DNA of 64,000 bases, taken from Cliona cf. orientalis. Its lineage: Eukaryota; Porifera; Demospongiae; Clionaida; Clionaidae. Below the pieces are notes generated by a model that did not search any database, was not told where the DNA came from, and saw only the letters and a list, made by a program, of their open reading frames with translations. Of the stretch, positions 6,094 through 64,000 are shown piece by piece. Made by a program: the position numbers and the translations under genes. Within the stretch, counting starts at the first letter, position 1. Every line of letters begins with the position of its first letter. The DNA is taken from assembly GCA_963930775.1 (NCBI GenBank), contig OZ005699.1:5353501-5417500 (forward strand), given 5' to 3'.

Positions 6094-7676
6094 ATGTGCA
6101 ATAAACTCAGCATCCATTTATTGTTGTACTTATTGCTATGCATAGGTCTAAGTAGCAACAAGTGCCCAATATGGCATATCTCTAGAAATGGGCAGTGTGA
6201 ATGTTGTAACAGTTTTAATAAAATCATCCAATGTGGTGATAATATCTTATTTGTAGAACATGGTTACTGCTTGACATGGAATAATTCAACCCAGAGTGCT
6301 GAACTTCATCGATGTTTCTTTTCTGGATGGAGTTCTAATTACTCGTTACCACATGCATGGACAGGTGATCACATGGATAGAATCCCACTTGATACTTCTA
6401 GAAGTGCATTAGACAGTTTATCGTGTGGTGAGTACAACAGGAGAGGGACACAATGTAGATAATGCATTGATGGCTATGGACCTGCATTATTCTCTGATGA
6501 TATCTTTTGCACTGACTGTTCAAAGTACAAACACCTTTGGGTATTGATTCTTTTGTTTCAGCTAATAATGCTAACACTAATGTGCCTTGTATTCATCATT
6601 CTTAAGGTCAATGGAAGTGGCAGTCCATTTAACGTAATCATTGCATATGGTCAGCTGATTGCATTGGGGTTCAGACTCAGTGGAAACATGCGCAATAAAA
6701 CACTATGCTTTTTTGGTGAAAAATTTACTAACGTGGCTCTGTCATTACTAGGCCTTTTGAACTTGGATTTCTTTCACACTATACTTCCCAAATTATGCAT
6801 TAGCAATCAACATATTACTATTTTATTATTTAATAGCCATATTTCCTTTAATTATCACCCTTCTTGTTTATTTGTGCTTAAAATTGCACGATAGAAACCT
6901 CAGATTCATTTTATATCTGAGTTTTCCCATAAAGAAATGTTTTAAGTGGTTTGGTGAAACCTGGGATCCCAGACCTACAATTCTTAAGTCATTAAATTTT
7001 GTAACCTTCATTTTACTTTCCTATTCTAAATTTCTTTTTACATCTGTCAAGCTTTTCTTAGCATTTCAAGTGTACACTGTAGATGGTGAAATAGTTCCAA
7101 ATTCAATTGTTCTCATTTACGATCCCTCTATGAGACTAATCCACTCGGAACATATACCATATTTTGTATTGGCATTCTTTGTCATGATGGTATTAATCCT
7201 TCCTCTCCTACTTCTACTATTGTATCCCCTTAAACGTTTCAAGATATGTCCAAGTATGCTTGGATTTCAACGATGGGATATTCTTCATCTCACTATGGAC
7301 ATATTCCAAGGATGGTATAAGGATGGAACAGAGGTCACTCTCTATATTGTATTTGCTGATTAGAATTGGATTTTGTACTGCACTTGCTGTCATGGATAGC
7401 ACAAATGTGACATCAACTACACCGAGGGAAATACTTATTCTTGGGATCATCCATTTAAGTCTTGGTTCATTGTTTCTGATTATTAAACCATACCAGAAAA
7501 TGTGGATGAATCGTGCTGATGGTCTGGTTTTCACCACAGTTGGAATATTGCTATTTTTAGTAATTATTAATACTAAGCCATACTATGTATTGGAGTTGAC
7601 AGTTGGAGTGATAGGAACAGGTTTGATTACTGTATGCATCATTTATGAATACATAAAGGAAAGGCAAAGAAATTGA
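6094..7676 (+). pseudogene. Cys-rich multi-pass membrane protein, decayed copy A
   Basis: A signal peptide (hydrophobic LLLYLLLCIGL) is followed by a cysteine-rich ectodomain with CPIWH, CECC, GYCLTWNN and DGYGPALF motifs. About seven hydrophobic segments follow, including TFILLSYSKFLFTS and the cytoplasm-facing signature FQRWDILHLTMDIFQGWYKD. The motif order is the same as in copy C (15717-17267), and the membrane core is related to copy B (minus strand, 8.4-14 kb). The membrane core resembles the C-terminal domain of large animal beta-helix surface proteins; this is from memory and the ligand is unknown. Breaks: an in-frame stop at about 6460 (between QCR and CIDGYGPALF), a frameshift at about 6830-6870, and another at about 7330 just after YKDGTE. 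The ATG at 6094 precedes the signal peptide. Confidence 0.75.
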
Positions 7677-8164
7677 ACCATCATCTTCCTCTTTTGACTT
7701 GATATAGTATTATTACAGTAACAACTCTTGTACATAATATTATGTCCCTCACCTAGAAAAAATTGGTGATGTTAATTATGCTAAACTGATATTCAGCTTT
7801 GTGCATAAATTATTGTCCTCTTTAAGAAATACATCACTAGTATATGTACCTATACACGCCCCAGTGAGAGTGTGATCAAACATTATTATATACCCCCTTT
7901 GAGTGATTCTCAAACACCTAAAAGTGTATACCCCATGAGGTATTAGGGTACGTATTAAGACTAGTAACACCAGACCTTGAAGGGGGCCTGGTGTTCATGG
8001 CATACCTATTATAAAATTCTTAAAAGGATATTGATTTGACACGTCATTTCTAACAGTGGTAAACTAAATTTTATGATGATATCCTGAATAAAATGGTTAT
8101 CAAATGCACCCATGAAACACATACAAAGTTTTATAGTCAGCAGCGATGATATCTAACCAAGAAG

Positions 8165-8214
8165 TAGCCTCGAACCCAGGCTCACTTTCGAAAGTGAACC
8201 TGGGTTCGAGGCTA
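8165..8214. mobile_element. 50-bp hairpin MITE with 9-bp TSD
   Basis: A nearly perfect palindrome from TAGCCTCGAACCCAGG to its complement, with TTCGAA at the centre. Direct repeats ACCAAGAAG flank it (8156-8164 and 8215-8223). The ends match the TAGTCTCG family. It is the shortest member seen here, essentially two fused terminal repeats. Confidence 0.85.
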
Positions 8215-8426
8215 ACCAAGAAGAGGCTATAGCTCAAAATATCATAAAGTGATCTCTCATACAAACTGTAAAAATTGGCCTCTTGAAAAATATTATTTCC
8301 ATTATAAGAGTATGCTAAATGACACAATGGTGGTTGATGAAATAGTGAGGAAATTCCTATGTTACAGTGTTACACACATGTAAACGAGTTGAATACAGTT
8401 GGTATCAGTCCTGTGCTGTGGCTCTC

Positions 8427-9060
8427 TTAATCGTCAATTAATGGTTCACGTAACTTTGTGGATGTCAGTGTTTCAGTATTGCTCACTACTATAGCAGTAT
8501 CACTCTTATTGTTGTCACTACTGCCAATTCCTTTGGGAACAACCGGAACAAGAAATGATATAAATATTTTTACCTTCTTCAGGGACATTAGTTGTTGACC
8601 AGCATGATGAAGTACGAGAATAATAAAGATAATAAAAGCAACACAAGTTGAAATGCACGTAGTTACAACCCTGCTTTGTCCTATCAAGATAATATAAACT
8701 GTAGATACAGAAAGTAAAAGTAAGTTACAATTTCAAGAGTATTATTCAAAATACTTTTGTAGACACCGCCAGCAAATGTAAGGCCAGCAAGTAGAATGCT
8801 ACTCATCACAGAAATTGCCAAAATATTATTGCCGGGATTATTGGTGAAACTTATGACAAATATGGGCAAGAATATTCCCCTCACTAAGAGTAAAAGTCCA
8901 ACCCAATACCTATGCTTGGCTTTGTATGGTCCAGTATAGGCATCAAAAAGAGGCATTAGCTAATCTGTGTACTCAAAACAAGAGACAGTAGTGGGAAAAC
9001 CGTTGAAATCATTGGATGAACATACATTAATGTAAGTGCATATGGAACTGAAAGTAAACG
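8427..9060 (-). pseudogene. Multi-pass membrane protein copy B, C-terminal part
   Basis: Minus-strand continuation of the gene fragment at 12545-13985. Frames read VPYALTLMYVHPMIS (about 9047-8990), then PLFDAYTGPYKAKHRYWVGL and LLLVRGIFLPIF (from about 8953), further membrane helices, and a tail beginning IGQSRVVTTCIS and ending REPLIDD. FDAYTGPYKAKHRYW aligns with FQGWYKDGTEGTYDYRF of copy C, so this is the same fold. Breaks: a frameshift and stop just before PLFDAYTG (about 8955), and a frameshift near 8705. A transposon nest (9061-12545) separates it from its upstream half, either inside an intron or inside the exon. Confidence 0.7.
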
Positions 9061-9646
9061 TAAGATAAGTTATACACTACTAATACACTAAGTAGAAAAA
9101 AGCGAACTTAAGGTACCATTAAATTGCGTGGGCGTGAGCGTGAGGATTGATCAGCGAATCGTGAAGGGGCGTGGCCGAAGAGGCCATACGAGTGCTTTTG
9201 GTCGAAGGTGGGCATGTCCAGAATCGGCTTGGGATGATTATGCGCGTGTAATTAGCGACCGGAAGTGGCCCCTGAAGAAAACACCGGTAATTGCCCACAT
9301 CAAAGCAAGATCAAAGCATTCTTTCTTAACTATTAATCGCAACGATTTAGTCTTATTACACTAATTACACACTAAGTAGAAAAAAAAAGATTTCCATTAT
9401 TGCGACTCTGGGGAGCGGTTGGGACCGTAAGTTTTATATGGGCATGCAGAATGGCATGGCTCAAATTACGAACTTTGATCGAGAGACTTTTTTGATTCAC
9501 ACCCTAGAATTAAAGTTATGGCTCTTTGAAGTTTGTATAGGAAGCCATTCACTTGCAATGTTTGCCAAAAAAATTTACGGGCACGCGAAAAAAATTTTAC
9601 GGGCGCGCGGCGTACGTTGACGACCCTTTACCGAACATTGTGCATA

Positions 9647-9993
9647 CCGTAGACTCGGGTTATTAAGCGCATGCGCTTATTGCTGTTGGTGATAAAGAAA
9701 TATGCGCTTAATAAAAAATGTGCGCTTATTAATGAGAGTAGTTTAGCCACACCCCCTCACGGGCGGTCGTGATCCGCGCGAGGGATCGAAGTATACTGCA
9801 CTGGTAGAGCTATCAAGTGAGTAGCAGAACCATCAAAAGGGACGGTAACCTGATCAGAAAGCTACAGTGAACAGCTAGGCTACATTTATTGAGTATGCGC
9901 TTATTAGCCAATGCTAATAGTAGGAAGGCAGCATGCGCTTATTAAACAATGTGCGCTTAATAACCAGGTGCGCTTAATAACCCGAGTCTACGG
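9647..9993. mobile_element. CCGTA-type MITE, TA target duplication
   Basis: The ends are CCGTAGACTCGGGTTATTAA and its complement, bordered by TA on both sides. Subterminal GCGCATGCGCTTATT words occur several times near both ends. A TA duplication suggests the Tc1/mariner group. No transposase is present. Confidence 0.8.
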
Positions 9994-15716: not shown

Positions 15717-17267
15717 ATGAGCTCTTTTCAGGTGTTGCTTTTCTTCTTCTCTAGCATCTGTATACCTCGGATTAGTTGTATTCAACGTGATAATGGTGAT
15801 CAGTGTCCACTTTGGCATATCCATGATAGTAATGGTGAGTGTGCATGTGGAGCAAGTCTTAATGGAATAATAAACTGTGATAAAGATTTTATACATGTGG
15901 AAAATGGCTACTGCTTAACTTGGAATAACTTGACAACAAAAGAAGAATTATATCGCTCTCCGTTAAGTCGTTGGACATTTGCTCTTACTGATCAGGGATA
16001 TTATAGCATACCAATTGATGTAACACGCCAGAGACTCAATCACGTAATGTGCCACCGTTTTAATAGACAGGGGGCACAGTGTAGCCAGTGCATTAGCGGC
16101 TATGGACCTGCTGTGTTTTCAGATGGTATCACCTGTGCTGACCGTTCGAAGCATAAATATCTCTGGATATTGAATCTTATGTTTCAATTGACTATGGTGA
16201 CATTAATGTGCCTTGCATTCATGATATTTCAGATCAAAGGAACTTCTAGCCTCTCAACATCATCATTGCTTACACTCAGAATGTTGCTTTTCAATATGGA
16301 CTTTCTGCAGTAGATTACTTTGGTCGAAAGATAGGCACAATAATCATTACTCTTCTCGATATCTGGAATCTGGATTATTTTAGATTGCTTCTCGGTCCAT
16401 TATGCATTAGTTCATCACTTACAGCAATCCACTGTATTCTTTTCCAATACATTATTGCCATCTATCCACTCCTTTTTACTGGCATGACTTGCTTATGTAT
16501 TAATAATATCGAGAAGTCTATAATTTTTCATCCATTAAGAAGGTGTTTAAGCAAGTCATGGGATCCCAAGACAACAATTCTTCACACTTTCGCCACCTTT
16601 TTCTTACTTTCATACACTAAACTCTTGTATACATCTATAAGTCTTCTGTTAGTTGTTCATTCATACAATGTACGTTACTGGCAAAAAATCACCAAATTCA
16701 GCAGTTCTGCTATTTGATCCCTCCATCAAGTTCCTTCACTTTGATCATGCTCCTTATGCGACTGTTGCACTACTCACTCTTTCGATATGTATTGTCCCAC
16801 CGCCTATGCTACTATTGCTATATCCAACGAAATTATTAAGAAAATGCTTTAATCGCTTTAGATTTCAGCGGTGGGATGTGCTTCACCACATCATGGATGT
16901 ATTTCAAGGATGGTACAAGGATGGAACAGAGGGTACCTATGATTATAGATTTCTTTCGGCCTTCTTTCTTGTCTTGCGAATTGCTCATGGTGGAAAAACT
17001 TTTGTGATATCTTTGGTGGACAACAAGGAGAAACGTATACTCATACAAGTTTTGTTCGTCGGAGTTTTACAAATTTTAATGGGGTTGCTGTTTTTCATAT
17101 TAAAGCCGTTTAAAATAAATTGGATGAGTAAGGTTGATGGAATTATTTTTACTTTGGCTGGATGCTATGTGCTAATAGAGACCCTTAACAACAAGTGGCT
17201 CTTCATCTTCACAACAATAGTGATAATATTAATAGTTGTATTTATGCATGTTATAGGAAGTTTGTGA
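15717..17267 (+). pseudogene. Cys-rich multi-pass membrane protein, decayed copy C
   Basis: The best-preserved of the three paralogues. Signal peptide (VLLFFFSSICI), then CPLWHIHDSNGECACG, GIINCDKDFIHVENGYC, LTWNNLT, MCHRFNRQGAQCSQC and ISGYGPAVFSDGITC, so about ten cysteines before the first helix. Then about seven helices with ATFFLLSYTKLLYTS, SAVLLFDPSIKFLHF, MLLLLYPTKLL, FQRWDVLHHIMDVFQGWYKD and FLSAFFLVLRI, ending at VIGSL. Two frameshifts are needed to read it through: one near 16255-16280 (before NVAFQYGLSAV) and one near 16672 (before TGKKSPNSAV). No intron is evident. It is either a recent pseudogene or a real gene with two assembly indels. Cell-surface role inferred, function unknown. 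Confidence 0.7.
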
Positions 17268-27653: not shown

Positions 27654-30600
27654 ATGAAGATCAAAGATCTTCCTCCAGGTGTGGTGCTAGAGCTGTGCCG
27701 CTACCTCAACGTCCAAGGCGACGGACAAAAGAACTGGAAACAACTCATCTCACGGATTCCAGGTAAAATGATCTGTGACAAGTCACAAATATTAACTCTG
27801 TCACATCATATTGCAGGTAGAGTATACACAGTGTATCATGTGGAGGCCTTTGCTCAGGCTGGTCAGCGTGCCCACACCAGCCCAGCAGAGGAGGTCATCA
27901 TGGACCTCATTACTCTAGGAATGACTGTGGACAGCCTCTATAGAATTCTTCACACTATGGACGCCAGACAGTGCATGGAAACACTGGCAGAGTATGGTGA
28001 GCATTAAACTTTATAGCTAGTTTGTGGAGATAATGATGTATTTAGCTGAGAGTGATTGTAAACCAATGATCGTATGTAATAATATGAATGGTATGATAGT
28101 AGCAAATCTATGCCGAGAAAGTGACTGATTTCTCTTGGTGGCTATCCCAATAATCTTTATGGAATCAATTAGTAATCTGAGTCCCAATAGTTTATTTAAG
28201 AGGGGAATTTTACCCACTTGTATATAGCAGCTAGCGCTATTGGGATAAAAAACCATACACACTGCATCGGCTGACTAATACTATTTTATATTAAAGCATT
28301 GAAAACATTGACCAAAGGCATCGATGATACTCAGAAGGCAATACAATACCTTTGTGCCGAACGCTCGACAATGCGTCTAGCTCTAGCTATGGCCTGAGGT
28401 ATTAAGACCACTCTTCTTTGTGCATATGGCCCTACAGGTACAGTTCTGACCAATCCTGAGCCTTGTAGTGCAGACTTACTCTCCGCCTGTGCCACATGTT
28501 CACAGCAACCGGGTGTATCGATGCTCTCATGTAATGACACGGACTACATAAGAAAAATGATCGTCTGAAAAATATCTTTCGTTGTATATACATCTAACAA
28601 TTCAACTTTGTATATCTGCTTTAAATTTTTCATCCCTAAACTTATTGTTTTTCTCTCATTCGTGTGTAAACGTACTGCAGTCTCAGTTGAAGTGATTGAT
28701 GAAGTGGAGGCTTTGAGGCAGAGGGATATTGAGATGGCTGCCTACCAACCAGAGCCAATGGCAGGTTTGAAATTATTTTGATATTGCACTATACATAGTG
28801 TTGTATGAAGTATAATATGACATTGTACATGTACCTGGTATGCATCTGAACACATTTGGCATAAGCAACCAACAGACAATATCCCCAATGGGTTGCAGAC
28901 TCCTGCCCTTGATGTTGTATAATAAATTGTGGCATCAAATTGAAAGTGTACTGACTCCTATCTTAGATTATGTACAAATGTACATGTAGTTTCAAAATTT
29001 CCCCTAAGCTTTTGGTACTACAATGGCACAACATTCAGCAATTCCCATTTATGTACATGTACATTGTATAATATTTGCTTTTACCAAGGGCTATAGACTC
29101 CCTTGCTTCTCTACCTACCGTACTTAATCTAATATAATGCATAGAAAAAAAATAATTTCAATTTTGAAAAACGCGCGTTTTTTCTGGTAAAGGTCGTCAA
29201 TCGCTCCATATATAAATGTTATGAGAATTCGTAAAATGCTAATTTATTGCATTGAATTGGAACATGCGTTGTATCAATTAACTACGGTAATCCATTTATC
29301 GAGCTCAGTATTAGCCTACTATCATGTCTTCCTTTATCTCTTCCCTCAGGGGTTGACCCTGGTGGTCCACCAGTGGATGGTGACATCCACCCTCTCTATG
29401 GCCCCCTCCCTGGACCCCCACCACCAACATCCTCCCAAGACCAGCAACAGCTACAGCAACGCTCAAGACAGAACCTCCATTACCACCAAACCTCAGCTGC
29501 TTCCCCACGTCCTCGCTCTCAAGCTCCAGCACAGCAGCATGGCTCTCTCTCCAATGGGGGCTCTGTCTCTACTCACACCTCTACTATTAATAATTGTTAT
29601 TCTGGTAGCAGACAGGTGCAGCAGGGTTCAAGTATGCTGCCTGCACAGAATCTCCATAGTCAGAGTAATTATTATTCTTCTAGTCAGAGGGGAAACTCTG
29701 GTGGAACCTCTCTGAGCTCTACTTCATCCAGCTACGAGGGTGATAAGGGACACAGGCATCCCTCCCCTCCATATCTGTTGTCCCAAACCAGTTTCAGCTA
29801 CTCGCCCACCACGGCTGCTGCTATCACTACTGGCAAGAGTTATCAGTCACAGTCAAAGGATTCACCTCTAGAGTACTCCTGGCCATCTTCCTCGAGTAGA
29901 CAACCTACGGCTAACCAACAGGTATCTAATGGAGGAGTCCCCTTGTATAATCACCACAAGCAGGCAGCCAGCTCAAACCAGCAACAACATGCCTACTCTC
30001 CTAGCTTGCCCAGTACCTACAGCACTAGCAGTTCCTCGCTTGAGCCATCAAGTTTTCCGTACGCTTCCCTGCACAACACATCTAGTTCCAATGAACAACA
30101 ACCTGTGATGCCATACCACCCAGGTCACATGCCCTCTCCTTCTTTCAGTGATGATTCAAGGTACAGTACTAGTGATAGTTCATCTGGACGCAGCCACACG
30201 GGGGGCAGTAGCAGTTTAACATTTCCATCGGGTCCCCTCTTGAGGGACAAGAGGTCAAAAGATGAGGAAAAGTCTGTTGAGCCCAACATCCTTAGGTTCA
30301 CATATGCTGAGCTGTCTGAGGCCACTGATGGTTTCATCAAGGACATGCTGGGACTAGGCTCATTTGGGACTGTCTTTAGAGCCAAAGTCAGAGGGAATGG
30401 ACCATATGCAGTCAAAAAGTTGTACAGTGTAAGTGTATTTACATTGTATGTGTTTAATGCCACGGAGATATATACATAATTGCACATCTACTAGAGCAGA
30501 TTTCCTGAAATGTGACTCTATGTACATGTATGCAAGACCTTAATTGGGGTGCATGAGATGCATGGTCGAATGCACCCCAATTAAGGTCTTGTAACTGTCT

Positions 30601-53049: not shown

Positions 53050-53894
53050 TTACACCAACCCATCGATCACCAAAGCAACAAGTCTACTAGCATAAGGTTG
53101 CTCTCGAAGCACGTGCCTCCATTTGCGGTTTAAAATTAGTGCCTCAGGACTGAACAACACCAGCTGATATGCACCCCCAGTGACAGAAGCTTTCTTATCC
53201 ATGTCACTTTCACAATCAATAAAGGCAGCTTTGATACCTTTGGCACTGTAAGACGCCACCTGGTCTTCCATCAGGGCGATGAGAGGAGAAATAATGCACC
53301 TATCACAGTCATGCCCCTACCGGGCATAGGAGGGGATTAGACCATTTTTGTGTTCTAATTCCCTGCCCACTGGGCATCTTTGGAGGTCTAATCCCCAGGG
53401 TAATACTAGATTTTGCCAAGCTATCATAGTGCTTTTGCATGTTGGTTGCATGGCCATCCTGTTCCGATGCCTATTTTCGATCTTCTGTTATACACCATCA
53501 GAAAATGCAATACATACAGTACGCGCATGCTCACAAGCACGTTGACCTTTGACCCACATGTCTGTACTACTCGATCTAATGCCCATACTGTGGGGTGCTC
53601 CATAGATCTAGCCCCTGTCTAATCCCCTATCTGTGCCCGGTAGGGGGTAGGTGGGGCATGACTTTGATAGGTGCATAACAACCACTATAGCTTTACCACC
53701 ACCAGACTCGACTGCTAAGTAGTCCAACACGAGAGGAAGGAGCATGTAGCACAAGCTCTTCCAAAGCCAGTAGGCAAAGATACAAACACATCTCTCCCTT
53801 CTACGAAAGTACACAAAATGTTCACTTGTTCATCTTTCAGCCGGTCATAGCCTACTGACACACCGGCTTTCCTCACAGCTTCAGCGATATCCAT
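53050..53894 (-). pseudogene. RecQ-like helicase N-terminal fragment
   Basis: The ATG at 53894 starts MDIAEAVRKAGVSVGYDRL, then LKDEQVNILCTFVEGRDVFVSLPTGFGK-type motif I. After a one-base loss at about 53762 the frame continues SLCYMLLPLVLDYL and GGGKAIVVV. After a MITE insertion (53295-53675) it reads IISPLIALMEDQV, GAYQLVLFSPEALI and ALVID (motif II position). The DEAH box is lost: VID is followed by GLV and a stop at 53050. Motif order is that of RecQ helicases (3'-5' DNA unwinding). Such single-copy fragments in animals are often transposon-associated paralogues. The remaining helicase and RQC parts are absent. Confidence 0.75.
53295..53675. mobile_element. 381-bp PIF/Harbinger-like MITE in helicase
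   Basis: The ends are TGCACCTATCACAGTCATGC and the complement of TGCACCTATCAAAGTCATGC. TAA is duplicated at 53292-53294 and 53676-53678. A 3-bp TWA-type duplication fits PIF/Harbinger. It splits AIVVV from IISPLIAL. Confidence 0.85.
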
Positions 53895-54212
53895 GCCGAC
53901 GTTCCTAGCTACATGTAGTTTTGTGTGTGCACACGTATACACTATCGTGGTACTAGCGTGGTTGTGGTTACGCTGGAGCAAATTGCATACCGCGGTGAAG
54001 CGGTAGCCACAACTTATGAATATTCATGTTCCCCAGGATTTCTGGGGAGCAGAACAACTCGGGTAACGGAGCCGTACCAGACCCTTCCTCCTCTTGTGAA
54101 GGGGCGGCGCCGCGAGACTACCCCCTTACTGAGTGAAAAAGTGTAGCCAGTTTCTGGTCTCCAAATGTTGTAGCATGTAAATTAATAATGGCTAGACCTT
54201 AATATGCATTAT

Positions 54213-55757: not shown

Positions 55758-56012
55758 TATATCACTATACAATTATTCGTGAGCATGCCAAACCTGATTT
55801 CTAAACCAGTTGTACTTGAACTTGGAGTAATGGTGCCTATAAATTTATTGCATTTCTGTGTCTGATTCAGTGCTACTCAAGGTATACTATTATTAAACCA
55901 CTAGCTATAGTGGTGCAACCATTGTTTGGACAGCCTCGAGATCTGTAGTAGGTATTGCTGCGAACTTTCAATTGCCATTACACAATATCACCAGTTCCTT
56001 TAGTTATCTATC

Positions 56013-56091
56013 ATGGATATATCAACAGCAGTGATATATTTATGGCTTATTCTCTCGGGTGATGTGGAGCTCAACCCAGGACCAAAAGGAG
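56013..56091 (+). other. Exon 1: short hydrophobic leader ending in a 2A motif
   Basis: 26 complete codons from the ATG at 56013, then a phase-1 GT donor at 56092. Residues 6-14 are hydrophobic (AVIYLWLIL), followed by SGDVELNPGPKG. GDVELNPGP is the full canonical 2A motif, at which ribosomes skip the Gly-Pro bond. In sea urchin NLR genes, N-terminal leaders of this same design act as both signal peptide and 2A, giving two cellular destinations for the product. The joined codon (G|GT) continues in frame into the death-domain exon. Confidence 0.85.
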
Positions 56092-59000
56092 GTAACCAAT
56101 CTGTCACAAAGAATTAATTATGCACATCCTGTATGTATAAGTAGTCCAAAACAATATTGGGATAATGCTTATTGGTCAAAGAAAGCGCACTTATGACTAA
56201 AACATAATTTTAATACTCAGTCCTGCATGGAAATTTATTGTTAAACCATCCACCTGTCTTATGTGTGCATGCAATAAAATTTATGGGTAAATAGCTACCG
56301 GGATCACAAGCACTGTAATTGATTATGCATTTTATCTATATAATTATAATATTATGTAACTGCTGAGCTGCAAAATACAAAATCATAATAATGTTATTAT
56401 GCTACAGTAACCCCTCCAGTGCATTAGTGCAATAATTATACTGTATTTTATCCCTACATACTGGTAATTACAGCATGAATGCATGTCTATATTTTATTTT
56501 AGGTCAATTGACACCCCGTGATCTAAAAACGATTTGTACAGAAATATGGGAAGCCCAATTAAAATGGTGTGACATTGGAATTGAACTTGAATTAAGTAAA
56601 AATATTAATGATCTTGATATAATCCAACAAAATTACACAGAAACAACAAAATGTTTTAATGAAATATTATGTGAATGGCTTAATAGAGTTGATCTACAAC
56701 CAAGTTGGAATTCTTTGGCCAATGCACTTTGTGCACCTGCTGTTGGACTAGGTCACTTGGCAGAAAAATTCAAGAATAAGCATGTTCTTGCACACTCTAA
56801 TCGAGAATCTGCTACTGCAGTTGGCAATGATAATGTATCACAGTGCATAGAAAAATGCCCCAGTAGCAATCGTCAGGTCTCTGTGAACTCAGTAGTTGCA
56901 AGATTTTCGTTCCTCACATCGATCAATGAAGTGTCAACACTTGATGAGGGTCAAAAGAAGGCTCTTGAGCAGCGTCTTAGGGATGAATCACAGCAGATAA
57001 TGCTGCAATTCTGTACATTATTGGATAAATTTTTTGATTCACTTGAAGATTCAACTATGACACCTAAACGACTTATAAGATCTTTAAAGAAACCCCTGAG
57101 GGTCCTTGATCCAGATGGAGATATGCATGAGTTGGACTCTGCAGCTAGCATTGATGATATCCAAAGTATTATTGAAGAAAACTCTTCTTTCATTGATTTT
57201 CGTCTCCTTGAACATATGATTAATCTGGCTGGAACGGAAGAGAATAAGGAAGATCTTAAAAAATACAAAGATAATCTTGAGTGCTATGCAAAGCGTAGAA
57301 TTTATGAATGCCCTGCAAATTTTGGGCCTTCTATCACACCTAATCATGAAGCACTTGTCGTGAAAAGGGATGCTACATACAATGAATACAAAGTTTCTGA
57401 ACTGCAACATTTTCAAGCAAAGCTGAGTCAAATCTTGCAGATTCCTCTACATGTTTTAGTCTTGCAAAAAGTGGAAAAAGGATGTATCAGAGTGGCTTTT
57501 TTGATACCAAAATTCTATTTAAAAGAGATATTCCCACTAATTATTGGTGGTGAGCCTGATGCATCATCATTTTCATCCTCCTCCTACAAGTTAGTATTCT
57601 TCATAAAAAATTAATTCATACTAGTCTTGTGAAATTTAACAAACCTGATCATGCGTCTTTGGATAGTGGTAGTCTCCACAGGTAAGTAGTATGATACCTA
57701 AACCAGCCATAGCTGATTCTTGTCCACCTAGTGAAAGTGAGTTTATACGTACTCCAGTCATATCTTTTTACTCACTTATACTAATCTAGCTAGATGCAGA
57801 ATTATCTGCATACTGTAAAATTAGCTAACAAACCTAGAGCTCACATATTCCCCATGCGCTGTTCCTGTATCCTGCTGCACTATTTATATAGAGCTAGTGA
57901 AGCATGTGTAAAGCTACTGATGACCTATACCTATCAGGCCAGCAGTGGGTGTGGTTGATAGGTGTGACCAATAAATGCAATGTTCACTATGCTCATGGGC
58001 CTTTTTAAACGATTCGAAACATACTGTGTATAGCAGGTTTTTCAATGGAGTTGTGTTTAGGTCGGAGTCACTCTGATGCCTAGATCTCGAGCTTTGGTGA
58101 TTTTCATGCTGACAACAGAAGATAGACAAATCAATAGCTTTACCCCTTGCTGCATATGTGCACGTGGGATAATAACGTTACTTAGATGCATATAATTTTA
58201 GTACCACTACTGTACTTAATCTAATACAACGCATAGAAAAAAAAATAATTTCAATTTTGAAAAACGTACGGTTTTTCTTAGTCTCGTCCCCAGACCCCAC
58301 CCCCAAAAAGGAGGAAGAGGGTCTGGTGACATTTGAGCGCTTTCTTGGTTCTTGCAAGCTCAGCATTCTTACTTTTGCGAAAGCCAATCAGATTGCAGCT
58401 CCACGATTTTCATGTGACCTTGCATCTGGTCGCGCAGTAACGATCGTACAATGTCAGCTGGCGGTTTAGCGCTAGCCAATGAGAACGCAGTTCTTTGATT
58501 GTGCATTGCATTGCGTAGCAACGTGGGACCGGCACGTGATTGATTGCATAATATTGGCATGAAATCACGCGCCCGTACAACCTAGAAATCGTTCCAATGT
58601 CACCAGACCCTTCCCCACGCGGGGATTTGGGGGCTGGGTACGAGGCTAGGTTTTTCTGGTAAAGGTCGTCAATCGCTAACGTTAAGAGAATTCGTAAAAT
58701 TAAATTGGATAATACGTTGTCTTCAATTAACTACGGTATGTATGCTACTATACATGTAACAATTAATGCATGTAGATGAGCTGAGTGTTGAAGTTAAACC
58801 AGCTGTGATCCGTTCTCCAATGAAACGCATGGATAGTATTGGTGAAGATTCAGCTATTGGAACGAGCATAAGGACAGTACTAACTGGAGATGGCGTTAGT
58901 TCATGCAGTGAGGTACCTAATGTACATTAACTCCTGTTTGCAATTAACTAGTGAAACACCGATCGGTATCGATTGGTTGTATTTGGTACTGTGTGTATGC

Positions 59001-62000
59001 AAATAAAATGCTAGATCAAGCACAAGAAAAATTGCGTTGTACATGTAGGATTTTTCATAATGTATCTTTATGTAGAGTGTGACCACTTTACCAGAAAATT
59101 GCGCAAAAATTTAAATCGTAGCTAATTATTTTTTTGCTTGCATTCTATTAGCAAAAATACGGTAAACGGTGATAGTCTCATCCCCAGACCCCACCCTCGA
59201 GGAGGAAAAGGGTCTGGTGACTTTGGGCAAAAAGCTTGGTCCAGTTGACGACCCACGGAGGAATTTGCGCAACCTAATCAGATTGCAGCTTTAGTCCAGT
59301 CATATGACTCACTAGCCGCAGGAATGTAGCAGGGCCATTGCCCGCTATACAAATTTGAATCACCTATGCAACCTTACTGGCCATTCACCAAAGTCACCAG
59401 ATCCTTTTCCCTCCTTTTGAGGGTGGGGTCTGGGGACAAGACTAATGGTGATAGGGCTGGGCCTTTGTTGCTGTGGGAGGGTCATGGCTGCTTGCATGCT
59501 GCTGCTGCTAGCTATACATTTACTGTGATTTGGGGAAAGATCACTTATGGTGATAGGATTTATTTGGGTCCCTGTCATCACAGGAATATTGAAAATAGAT
59601 TATTATGCAATAATTACTGTACCAAAATTTTCAAGTGGGTAGACCCCCTGCAAGCTATAGCTACTTACAGGATATACACTAAGGAATTGCCCCTGCAGTA
59701 GCATAATAATGCGCTTACGGCAATGTCAACTTGATGATGACAGGGTATTTAATGAGGCAAGAAATATTGCTTACTCCCAGGAGAGAATATACTGGCATAC
59801 ATCTCCCTACTGCCTGATTTATACTATTTGCTGCTGCTCCCCTTCTAATTACTCTCTGTTTCTGTTGCCTCTGGGAAGAGACATTATATCCCTTCCTTTT
59901 TTTGTTGGTAGTGCAGTGTACATGCATGCATGCATACATGCTGCTACTATGGGGATGAATGCTATTGTAGTGGGAGAGAATATACTGGCATACATCTCCC
60001 TACTGCCTGAATGTTTGTAAGACTCCTTTGGCTGAGGCAGTAGTGGCTGCTCCTATATGGAAGGAATGGCCTGAATAGTGGGTGCAATCAATGCCTGCTT
60101 TCCTTACGGTGGATTGAGTATATGCTGCTGCAGGTGTGAGATTAGTGCTTGTCCAGATCTGGGGATAGCCCCAAATCTACTGGGTTATCCAGGATTAGAT
60201 AAATGATCCAGCCAGCATATAGTTCTGTATGCAGATAGTCTTCTACCAAGGTGGGGTATACTAGAGCCAAGTGCATGGAATTGTCCGTAGGATGCTATGC
60301 TAAGGCCTTTTCCCATTGATGATAAACAAAAGGCCTGGTGATATTGAGGATAAATTAAAGGGTGGAAGTGGAATTGGTTCTGTATGTGTGTGTGCTTATA
60401 ATTCTAGCAAGTGTTGGGCGTAAGAGTATAACTGCATGTAAGATATTAACTTGCTCGTTTAGATTGATATACCCATGTTTTATTTTGTGCTGCTGAAGGT
60501 AATGGTAATTGGATGCTGGGCTCTAAAGAAGGCATGAGTCAGATATTTGCATGGGTATTCAATGACTGAAGTACCTGCAGAGAGGGATACGTAGTTCTCC
60601 TCTGATTTGCCTCTGCTGATTGGTTTGGCTGTTTATCGCTCTTTGTGACGTTGAAATGTATTTTGAATAGCAGTGCTGGTACATACAGAATGGAAGGTTA
60701 TATCCATCAAATGAATTCCATTTTCTATGGATTGGAATGGTAGCATATGGGCTAACTTAGTCGCCAGCATCCAGCTGGTGTCTTCTTCTGAAGACGTGTT
60801 TTGCCTTTGCCCGCATGAAGTATATTGTCCACAAAGCTGTATCGAGGTGGGCCCATAGCTCATTTGGTGTTGTCGCAGCTTGCCGATGGAAGTGACTGTC
60901 ATTCTGAAGCCATGATATAATATCGTGGTAATCCATGCTCACTTTGATAATGATTAAACAGTATGTGATAAGATCAGCCATGTGCTCAGGCTCGCACATG
61001 GGGGCAATTGTGTAGAAAGTATTATTATATACCCATCCTGAATTGACTTAAGTTTATCCGTCTTTTCGAAGGGATCAAAGATGGTGGGTTCAGGAGCACC
61101 TAACTATGATATGAGTAGGTAGTCTCAGGAAGTCAATGATTCCTGATTCCAGATCCGTTCTGCCATTTTTTAGGTACTACGAGAGAGCTGGGGCCTCTGT
61201 TGATTGCTTCTGTCGATTGTGTTCCTTGAGGGCTGCTGAGGCTTGCCAATAGGATATTAAGGGGAACCAACCATGGGAGGTTTCCGGTTCCAATGGTTTG
61301 TATTCCAGCTAGGGCATGGGAACCGGGTAGCTATGCAACCAGGTACTTTGAGGGATTGGTGATTGCTGCACCCCTATGAATATTAATGATTATTGGTGTT
61401 GCAAATTAATGTAGCCACAGCAGTACTGATCGCCAAGCAATGGGGCCTGCATGAGCTATAAGCCACACTTGGCCAGCACATGAGTGGTGCGTGTGTACTA
61501 GCAATGGTATCAATTAGTAACCTGGATTGGCAAGAGTCTATGATGCAATTTAATGGCATTATCCTGTGACATCCTTAAATCCTGGGTCAGGTCGCTCTTT
61601 AAATGTGTAAACAATGCTGCTTCTGTAGCCAATTCAGACACCTAACTCAGTGTGGCAGCTAAAGTGGTCACATGCCATTGGTACATGGCATGAAATGCAC
61701 ACGTGCCCAGCTCTATCATCAATGCTATCCCAGGGTTAACTTAGTAAAATGTCTAGTATTAATTTTTATTATCCATATTTGCATAATGATACATTTTATA
61801 TTAGGATACGATGGAACTATTCATTAATGAGCTTAGCGATATTGACCCTCTATCATCAGAAACAGCACTAATTCCTATTAGTGACAATACACTCTTTAAA
61901 GCTTCCATGAAGGGAGATCTAGACAAAATCAAACAGCTGGTTGAAGAGAAAGGATATAATCCACTCCAGTTCAGCTCATCACAGCATACATCTCTTCACT

Positions 62001-64000
62001 ATGCCGCCAGAGCGGGTAATTTGGACATATTGAGGTATTAATTTTTATTGAGGAGAGGGGTTGCATGCATTCCCCAGAGGATCATCAAAAGCAAATACCA
62101 CTTCACGTTGTGGCACGTTATGGTCACTTTGAAATAGTTAAGTACCTTGTTAATAAACAAATGGTTGATCCAACGAATCTTGATAGCTGCAATAAAACTG
62201 CATTAGATTATGCTACTATCAAGGGACACTTGGAAATAGTCAAATTCCTCATAAGGGAAATAGCCAAATACATTCCTATTACTGCTCTTGTTTTAAATAA
62301 ATCTTCAGTATCTTCTTACACTCCATTGCACTTTGCTGCTCAGTATGGTCACGTGCATCTTATTGAGTTCTTCTTGACTAAGATACCAGGCTGTGACCCC
62401 AACATAAGAGGTAAGAAGAAACGGCACATTCTACATGAGGCGGCCAAAAAAGGACATGCAAATATTGTCAGATATTTAGCAGAATTTCAACCAAATTGTA
62501 ACTTTTCATGTTTAGATAAGAATAAAGTTACTCCCTTGCATATTGCAGCTGCTAATGGCAACCTTGTTCTAGTCAAGCTATTAGCTCTGGAATTGAAATG
62601 TAATACCAATCAGAAAAATAAAGCTGGATATGCTCCATTATATTATCTTGCTGCGCTCAATGGCTATCTCAGTGTTGTTGGATTTTTTGTGTCCAATTTG
62701 AGATGTGATCCTGATCAACTTACGTCCTTCAAGCAGAGGACATCACTTCATCTTGCTTCTCTAAATGGTCATTTGAATGTTGTCAAATACTTGGTCCGTG
62801 ATAGAAAATGTAATCAAATAATCAAAGATGCTGACGGTATCACCCCAGCTAAACTTGCTTTGACCAATAACCATTTACAGACAGTTCAATATCTTAATTG
62901 CTCCTGGATTAATCACATTGCTTCAGAGGGAGATTTAAAAATCTCTACAAACATTTATATCATCACAAGGATTTGACCCAACCCTTTTGGCCTGCAGTGG
63001 AATAACACCACTTCATACTGCCTTAAGTCAAGGGCATATTGATGTAGCGAAATATCTTACTTCTAATGATATTTGTGATCCAATGAGTAGAGATGGTGAC
63101 AATAACACTGCTCTTCATAAAGCAGCTGGGTACGGTCATCTATCAGCACTTAAGGTTTTTGTATTCAATTGTCGTTGTGATCCCAATGTCACCGGAAAAG
63201 ACGATGATACACCTCTACACTGTGCAGCACTTGGAGGTCATCTTGATATAGTTAAGTACCTTATTGAAAAACATAGTTGTAACCCTTCGAGTCGTACTGA
63301 TTCTAATCATTTTACTCCTCTTCATTATGCTTCACTTTATGGGAATATAGATAGACATTGTGTTATATTTAACCCTTGAGCAAAATTGTGATCCAATGCT
63401 TTGAAGCAAAAACCACTCCTGTTTAGATTGTGCTGCTTTTGGTGGTTCAGTTGAAGTACTTAATTTCTTTATTACAGTATTGGATTGTGATCCTTGCAGG
63501 CAAGGATCGCATATGCTTGAGTATGTACCACTGATCTCTGCAGCTAATGGGGGGCACGTGGATGTAATTAAATACCTAATAATAGGGCAAAATTGCAATC
63601 CATCATTGGTAAACTGTGACAAACGTACTCCCCTTCATGGTGCTGCTCTCAATGGACATCTTAATGTTGTCCAACATCTTATAGAAGTAGAAAATTGTGA
63701 TCCTTTGGTCACTGATAATGAGGGCCAGTGTACTCTAATTAAAGCAGCAATTACTGGTCATGTGCACATCATGAAGTATCTAATACAAGTATTAGGTTTG
63801 CATCCAAATATGCACAGTGGTTCAAGAAAGCTTACACCACTGCATTACGCTGCCTACTTTGGGCACCTTGATGCTGTAAAATATCTTATTGATCAAGGAT
63901 GTGATCCAGCAGTGAGATGTGAATTTAATATAACTCCAATCCACTTAGCTGCTTCTAAAGGTCACTTACACATCCTCAAATTTTTCTTTATCGATTTAAA
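56013..64000 (+). CDS. 2A-leader, death-domain, ankyrin-repeat protein (partial)
   Basis: Exons: 56013-56091 (leader/2A), 56503 to about 57679, about 58776-58912, and 61805 onward past the window end. Exon 2: death domain (LTPRDLKTICTEIW, DLDIIQQNYTETTKCFNEIL, WNSLANALCAPAVGL), then a helical middle region ending in QILQIPLHVLVLQKVEKGC and AFLIPKFYLKEIFPLI, a module I recall from sponge and cnidarian death-fold proteins. Exon 4: at least 20 ankyrin repeats of the type TPLHYAAxxGHLDIVKYLI...CDP; the frame is open from about 63411 to 64000. Probably a signalling adaptor or receptor of innate immunity (inference). Breaks: one-base losses in an A run near 57606 and a T run near 62038, frameshifts near 62947 and 63357, and a stop near 63408. 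Either a decaying paralogue or assembly indels. Confidence 0.75.
57690..58200. other. Intron 2 of the 2A/death-domain gene, left part
   Basis: No coding or RNA feature seen. A strong GTAAGT donor at 57680 is out of phase with the next exon's most obvious acceptor, so the exact join is uncertain (alternative donor GTAGTC at about 57665, or acceptor GAG at about 58785). Confidence 0.4.
58210..58736. mobile_element. CCGTACTTAATC MITE split by another element
   Basis: The left end C(T)GTACTTAATCTAATACAA has one base changed. The right end is AATTAACTACGG followed by TA. The 370-bp TAGTCTCG element is inserted at the GGTTTTTCT site. Lies in intron 2 of the 2A/death-domain gene. Confidence 0.8.
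58279..58648. mobile_element. 370-bp TAGTCTCG-family element with 9-bp TSD
   Basis: It begins TAGTCTCGTCCCCAGACCCC and ends GGGTACGAGGCTA. GGTTTTTCT is exact on both sides (58270-58278, 58649-58657). Removing it and one repeat restores the CCGTACTTAATC MITE, so it inserted later. Confidence 0.85.
59173..59444. mobile_element. 272-bp TAGTCTCG-family element
   Basis: It begins TAGTCTCATCCCCAGACCCC and ends GGGGTCTGGGGACAAGACTA. GGTGA is shared near both flanks but no clean 9-bp duplication remains. Intron 3 of the 2A/death-domain gene. Confidence 0.7.
59980..61200 (-). mobile_element. Decayed tyrosine-recombinase element (DIRS/Ngaro-like)
   Basis: Fossil on the minus strand. An upstream part (about 61000-60757) resembles the gag-like first protein of tyrosine-recombinase retroelements, and a downstream part (about 60110-60000) has the recombinase C-terminal signature HYSGHSFHIGAATT. 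No reverse transcriptase part is recognisable between them. The element is broken, with many interruptions, and looks old. A nearby 40-base direct repeat (about 59773-59812 and 59970-60010) may mark local rearrangement. It lies in intron 3 of the 2A/death-domain gene. Confidence 0.5.
61201..61804. other. Intron 3, right part
   Basis: No feature recognised. It ends in an acceptor TTTTATATTAG directly before the ankyrin exon, which starts in phase 0 after the 58912 donor. Confidence 0.45.

Follow-up and report, generated by a model that had tools for sequence, protein, structure and literature searches.

The cellular use of 2A (StopGo) sequences is called rare in the literature, where NLRs are named with the sea urchin as the example, and a 2024 review likewise gives NLRs as the cellular 2A case (PMC11512398). 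The closest described leaders are those of the sea urchin NLRs (SpNLR2A), which are about 26 amino acids long and for which recoding and dual targeting were measured, with about 80% recoding and a mainly Golgi location when recoding was blocked (Roulston 2016, PMC4981915); the sponge leaders described below are known from sequence. In the sponge Amphimedon, 357 TRADD-N proteins of the NCOA6 clade have been reported, mostly with death-like domains and often with ankyrin repeats (PMC8195603), and a study of Dysidea NLRs reported DEATH-NACHT genes in large numbers together with transmembrane NLR architectures (PMC12909245). The terms 2A-like, NPGP, recoding and signal peptide do not occur in the main text of the former, nor 2A-like or NPGP in the main text of the latter. 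For viral StopGo sequences, upstream motifs are reported to be required for 2A activity, with four tested motifs reaching about 92.7% or more, and an LLLLSG-like class of such motifs is named; in natural contexts, N at p12 and H at p16 are reported to be >95% active beside the usual D, V/I and N (PMC12846837). Judged by title and abstract, none of the papers returned by our literature search deals with 2A sequences in the receptors of sponges, and because the Rao 2025 survey of eukaryotic 2A sequences lay outside its scope we claim no priority.

We analyzed a stretch of 64,000 nucleotides (the window, C11:5353501-5417500) within a 216.8-Mb assembly of 149 contigs. The features of the gene at its downstream end are as follows.

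56013 to 56091, forward strand: exon 1, the 2A leader, MDISTAVIYLWLILSGDVELNPGPKG plus one base; an open frame with a phase-1 donor, supported further by the long leaders of paralogs
56092 to 56502, forward strand: predicted intron 1, phase 1, bounded by GGAG/GTAACC and TTTTAG/GTCAAT, with candidate sites of matching phase at the equivalent position in paralogs
56503 to 57549, forward strand: predicted exon 2, with death domain, helical region and TRADD-N; frame open to 57614, donor TTGGTG/GTGAGC at 57550, phase 1
58776 to 58912, forward strand: predicted exon 3, a linker, based on an acceptor and a donor whose phases agree with those of exons 2 and 4
61805 to 62041, forward strand: predicted exon 4, the start of the ankyrin array, with a premature stop at its end
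62020 to 64000, forward strand: remaining ankyrin array, spread over three more frames, 62020-62976, 62939-63379 and 63405 to about 64421, beyond the window

Exon 1 opens with an ATG at 56013, followed by the hydrophobic stretch ISTAVIYLWLIL and then GDVELNPGP, and its 79 bases amount to 26 codons plus one base. The core, DVELNPGP at 56061-56084, fits the pattern (D/G/C/N)(V/I)ExNPGP, and the predicted skip would fall between the G and P of NPGP. Directly before the core is a short N-terminal hydrophobic segment (best 12-residue hydropathy 2.27, residues 3-14), and the n-region, MDIS, carries no basic residue. Like viral StopGo sequences (PMC12846837), the window leader combines the core octapeptide DVELNPGP with an L-rich hexapeptide ending in SG before the D; this hexapeptide, WLILSG, resembles the LLLLSG class by eye. 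Unlike the viral sequences, the window motif stands in a cellular gene, at the junction between a leader and an immune-type receptor. The sequence-only reading of this DNA had described a 26-codon exon with a hydrophobic stretch and a full GDVELNPGP motif, spliced in phase to a death-domain exon. The exon is as described, and the predicted splice (donor after 56091, acceptor before 56503) joins phase 1 to phase 1.

Measured to the end of the core, the window leader is 24 amino acids long and matches the last residues of long paralog leaders, with 58-62% identity over the last 24-25 amino acids, core codon differences that are mostly synonymous and E values of about 1e-6 to 2e-5 (64-kb window searched). 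These long leaders carry a part of ~190 amino acids upstream, and apart from the last 24 residues tblastn recovered no remnant of it in the window; some alignments extend back to 55962, but across a stop. A DNA search found no copy of 55850-56520 elsewhere in the genome, so this region is not a repeat family, and Rfam gave 0 matches at the gathering threshold across the window. A LINE open frame, the alternative named in the sequence-only reading, was rejected: the leader frame closes at 56114, ten codons past the motif, the next exon encodes a death domain, and neither reverse transcriptase nor endonuclease is present in the leader frame of the window. A viral origin of the leader was also considered and rejected, as no relatives were found in the viral or prokaryotic contigs scanned.

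The four-exon model remains in phase throughout and ends at a stop after 499 amino acids. Exon 2 scored 78 bits with an HMM built from eight paralogous death domains, the window being excluded from the HMM, and was the only match among all window frames of at least 30 amino acids. The Pfam Death model alone stayed under its cut-off on the window (E 0.039) and passed it in one of the seven paralogous death-domain exons scanned, while the L047 exon had no Pfam match at all. The order of domains had been read as a death domain followed by ankyrin repeats; both are present, but a TRADD-N domain between them had been overlooked. Pfam TRADD-N reached 18 bits in the window, under the cut-off of 23.7, and exon 2 with its relatives aligned to the L051 exon with an hhalign E value of 1.2e-45; L051 itself is above the Pfam cut-off for TRADD-N (E 7.1e-8), and L049, another 2A locus, passes too. 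The last TRADD-N strand of the relatives P0002-P0006 is missing or altered in the window. The absence of a NACHT domain, also claimed earlier, agrees with our Pfam scan, in which neither exon 2 nor the two ankyrin frames covered gave a NACHT match. Modeling of the exon 2 structure gave a poor result (pLDDT 63, with 60 or less in the death domain); Foldseek with this model returned nothing at E 0.001, and a sequence search of solved structures with A2 gave 0 matches.

With a death-like domain before TRADD-N and a variable C-terminus such as ankyrin, though frame-broken in the window copy, the predicted architecture of death domain, TRADD-N and ankyrin is a class already described in Amphimedon (PMC8195603). 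The window gene shares with that expansion, in which 1-3 death-like domains are followed by TRADD-N and a variable C-terminus, its domain order, its occurrence in a sponge and its place in a large lineage-specific family. MITE-like inverted-repeat elements with ends TAGTCTC..CCCCAGACCCCACC surround exon 3 (window 58278-59445).

The ankyrin array of the window runs through four successive frames with three breaks, the first frame (61805-62041) ending in a stop, and totals about 880 amino acids, or roughly 25 repeats by length. This is in keeping with the earlier count of 20 or more repeats but not with a single open frame, as is found in four paralogs (L034, 1069 amino acids; L035, 747; L036, at least 1369; L047, 961). 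Because the ankyrin frame is broken and the TRADD-N end is altered, the window copy is probably decaying, and we lean towards regarding this copy, and this copy only, as a pseudogene whose leader has no present function. The three breaks and the altered TRADD-N end occur in an assembly reported at QV 58 (PMC12639293), which favors this reading. Against it, the leader, the death domain and the phases of all four exons are intact and give the 499-aa frame, a truncated protein of death domain and TRADD-N could still act, and assembly error or allelic difference is a possible source of the breaks.

Across the genome we identified 152 exact GD(V/I)ExNPGP sites (86 forward, 66 reverse) and 0 for the reversed pattern, so the motif is not a product of chance. 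We studied the best 30 of 126 places that matched the window's own leader, a set that is biased to this leader because its members were chosen as the best matches to it. A hydrophobic stretch precedes the core in all 30 loci (by eye), and a death domain follows within 1.5 kb in the sense direction in 25, compared with 0 of 30 in antisense. The remaining loci are L004, L007, L021, L022 and L029, of which L004 has its death-domain exon further on (L036), at about 2.5 kb, making it a 26th locus. A script located a phase-1 GTA or GTG donor in 23 of the 25 death-domain loci, L026 and L027 having GTT at the same phase, and in-phase AG candidates stand before the death domain in all 25, some of them poor sites.

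Longer loci revealed what follows the death domain: ankyrin frames in L034, L035, L036 and L047 (two of them Pfam-scanned), NACHT in L037 (E 8.9e-25) and L048 (E 3.1e-21), and in L044 a long frame that matches Roc below the threshold (E 0.004). The leader exon is coding, is in phase with the death domain and recurs before several death-fold architectures, namely DD-TRADD-N-ankyrin, DD-NACHT and a death domain with a weak Roc-like match. The proposal that a 2A-type leader heads a death-domain/ankyrin gene without NACHT stands, but not as a lone case, given 152 sites and DD-NACHT genes that are headed in the same way. Like SpNLR2A, the window gene has an N-terminal leader of ~26 amino acids that ends in D(V/I)ExNPGP before a death-fold immune receptor, but downstream of SpNLR2A comes DEATH-NACHT-LRR (PMC4981915) and downstream of the sponge leaders DD-TRADD-N-ankyrin and others; the window gene has no NACHT-LRR, and NACHT stands behind the leader at other loci.

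Domain-based counts gave a complementary estimate. For 20 of the 24 Pfam TRADD-N matches in the genome, a 2A site lies at most 10 kb upstream on the same strand (19 within 4.3 kb), compared with 0 of 24 on the opposite strand and about 0.08 matches expected under uniform placement by our own arithmetic. Nine TRADD-N matches also have a downstream 2A site, in line with tandem arrays. Among the best 103 of 490 NACHT candidates, counted after one of 104 matches had been dropped as the second half of one gene, 11 have an exact 2A site at most 10 kb upstream on the same strand. This rises to 18 of 103 once 12 variant sites are added, which were hand-picked from the window-leader matches and are not the full set, with 1 downstream and 0 on the opposite strand. 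Thus, 2A leaders are the rule for TRADD-N matches and a minority feature for NACHT here. The Death list consists of the best 150 of 1292 candidates, and no fraction was drawn from it.

At L046 (on C1, and holding L022), a GDIEVNPGP frame around 1031-1056 has HTH matches, and OTU-like and DDE_Tnp_1_7 transposase frames at 7321-9865 lie 6-9 kb past the 2A frame. These transposase-type frames suggest that mobile elements may account for some of the 2A sites. Separately, YqaJ recombinase and PHD-finger frames occur at L032:8543-9927, about 6 kb past the ankyrin array, and are likely to be a mobile element. L045 (C17) holds two 2A frames on one strand, 8.2 kb apart (971 and 9184 of the reverse strand), in frames of 704 and 352 amino acids with no Pfam family match. 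Paired exact 2A sites on one strand occur on C10 at 760122/760492 (370 bases) and 774007/773803 (204 bases), and may represent genes with two 2A sequences.

Three groups of leaders, comprising the C2 loci, C5 with C13, and C15, have in common a homologous upstream stretch of ~190 amino acids; the leader of a fourth group, C3/C4/C6, is long but of a different type, and a few others look 40-50 amino acids long. Several sponge leader groups are thus ~190 amino acids long and conserved along their length, unlike SpNLR2A (PMC4981915). Hydropathy places hydrophobic segments of the long leaders near residues 62-80 and 177-193, and AlphaFold predicts long helices with a low pTM of 0.30; a membrane-type protein is plausible. 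A profile search of public assemblies yielded 74 leader homologs, some of which may come from the same species: 62 with a (D/N)(V/I)ExNPGP core (one of which, P0113, is a different protein), 7 with HPGP or DPGP and 5 with neither. Homologs of the leader and of exon 2 occur together on two contigs, recognized as the same by their identical length. P0113, of 314 amino acids, consists of five tandem LLLS.D.E..PG. units (two exact GD(V/I)ExNPGP, three altered) and is a possible poly-2A protein.

We aligned 52 of the 74 homologs (alignment A3), leaving out fragments and several full-length proteins, including the HPGP-bearing P0046 and P0060. Conservation across these 52 leaders is highest in the 2A core, with a mean entropy of 0.30 bits for SGDVELNPGP, 0.92 for the 14 preceding positions and 1.58 elsewhere. 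S, G, E, P, G and P are invariant in 52 of 52, and variation is found at p12 (D 42, N 10), p13 (V or I) and p16 (N 47, H 4, D 1). Between the window and the 30 loci, core codons differ by 125 synonymous and 25 nonsynonymous changes, and the 14 hydrophobic codons before the core by 126 synonymous and 245 nonsynonymous changes. Whole-leader dN/dS was 0.18-0.25 in the C2 ankyrin group, looser in the C5 group (0.24-0.75) and 0.33-0.64 in a third group, from sets of 4, 6, 6 and 3 leaders; dS was saturated between groups, and these sets omit L003, L010, L014 and L018 as well as L007 or others falling between groups, some being truncated and some redundant. HPGP and the rarer DPGP occur in L005, L008-L013, P0054 and others, several of which precede NACHT genes. 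We had considered that the HPGP leaders of the C5 NACHT group (HPGP or DPGP) were dead, and dropped this idea since H at that position is reported to be >95% active (PMC12846837); doubt about the ability to skip applies only to the rare DPGP form.

Several explanations of the leader compete with ribosome skipping as its main function. It might be only a signal anchor or membrane segment, with NPGP as a conserved topogenic or structural tail and no skipping, which would suit both the position of the core after the hydrophobic stretch in the loci read and the D in place of N in a few members (L005, L008, P0054). We consider this improbable, however, because the tolerated substitutions (D/N at p12, V/I at p13, N/H at p16) are forms reported to be StopGo-active and, by eye, the hexapeptide before the core resembles a StopGo motif class (PMC12846837), while E, P, G and P do not vary in the 52 leaders. 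The best evidence from sequence that skipping, and not just a role within a membrane segment, is what preserves the core is that the leaders differ almost only by reported-active forms, with D at p16 in 1 of 52 as the exception. Less probable still is that the leader is left over from a 2A frame of a retrotransposon or DNA transposon that was captured beside death-domain genes and is now unused. Non-LTR retrotransposons are known to carry 2A (PMC4981915) and L046 provides at least one genome site near transposase-like frames, but the window leader frame shuts soon after the motif and leads to a death domain instead of reverse transcriptase, its surroundings are single copy, the viral and prokaryotic contigs scanned hold no relatives, and dN/dS indicates purifying selection on the leaders.

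A further alternative accepts skipping but not dual targeting: the hydrophobic stretch would serve the ribosome tunnel only, skipping would be near complete and the leader would be discarded. The stretch also looks like the LLLLSG-like context that 2A needs, and so need not be a secretion signal; a leader of 24 amino acids would still be entirely within the exit tunnel at the decision point, so that the role of the stretch may lie in the tunnel no less than in targeting. The dependence of 2A activity on upstream motifs, and the high activity of the four tested (PMC12846837), point in the same direction. Nevertheless, the long leaders have another hydrophobic segment more than 100 residues upstream, their conservation over ~190 amino acids exceeds what 2A requires, and targeting does occur when skipping is blocked in the sea urchin leader (PMC4981915). 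We regard the absence of dual targeting as rather unlikely, though a more serious contender than either an anchor or a mobile relic.

We therefore return to skipping as the preferred reading. The window gene is quite likely to belong to a large sponge family whose members carry, at the end of the first coding exon, a 2A (StopGo) sequence that lets the ribosome skip. In most passages the ribosome would skip the Gly-Pro bond, so that the leader is set free and the receptor, starting with proline, is made as a second product that would remain cytosolic; where skipping failed, the receptor would keep its hydrophobic or membrane leader attached. In the window gene the released leader would be a short hydrophobic peptide, whereas in several paralog groups one mRNA would yield a small membrane-type protein of ~190 amino acids and a death-domain receptor. 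By analogy, this may be the same switch as that of the sea urchin leaders. More tentatively, with the chances somewhat short of even, StopGo could be a standing device of innate immunity in sponges, with one class of 2A exon placed before DD-TRADD-N-ankyrin, DD-NACHT and other death-fold receptors and with the ~190-aa upstream product of several groups acting as a membrane-type partner, in which one mRNA gives a cytosolic receptor, a membrane partner and a minor, fused and tethered receptor in a ratio set by the 2A variant. If true, both halves of a cellular polyprotein would be functional, instead of one being merely a discarded signal peptide.

Together, these results suggest that a signal-plus-2A leader of the sea urchin NLR kind heads several sponge death-fold architectures, for which we infer skipping, transcripts and membrane routing. 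A hydrophobic N-terminus of this type could lie behind some of the membrane predictions reported for sponge NLRs, among which DEATH-NACHT is common and from which the window gene differs in having no NACHT (PMC12909245). With at least 152 exact sites, many of them before death-fold receptors with and without NACHT, programmed ribosome skipping would be a broader feature of immunity in animals, and perhaps an old one. This raises the questions of whether the location of a receptor is set by the efficiency of skipping, and what role the conserved leader protein has once released.

The window also contains other frames that were assessed by eye. A 407-aa frame on the forward strand (29256-30479), ending LRFTYAELSEATDGF..LGLGSFGTVFRAKV, resembles the start of an IRAK/Pelle-like kinase, and frames on the reverse strand at 53050-54023 resemble a RecQ-type helicase. 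Related membrane-protein frames at 6761-7363 and 16653-17267 both contain the motif GWYKDGTE and are likely to be members of a tandem family.
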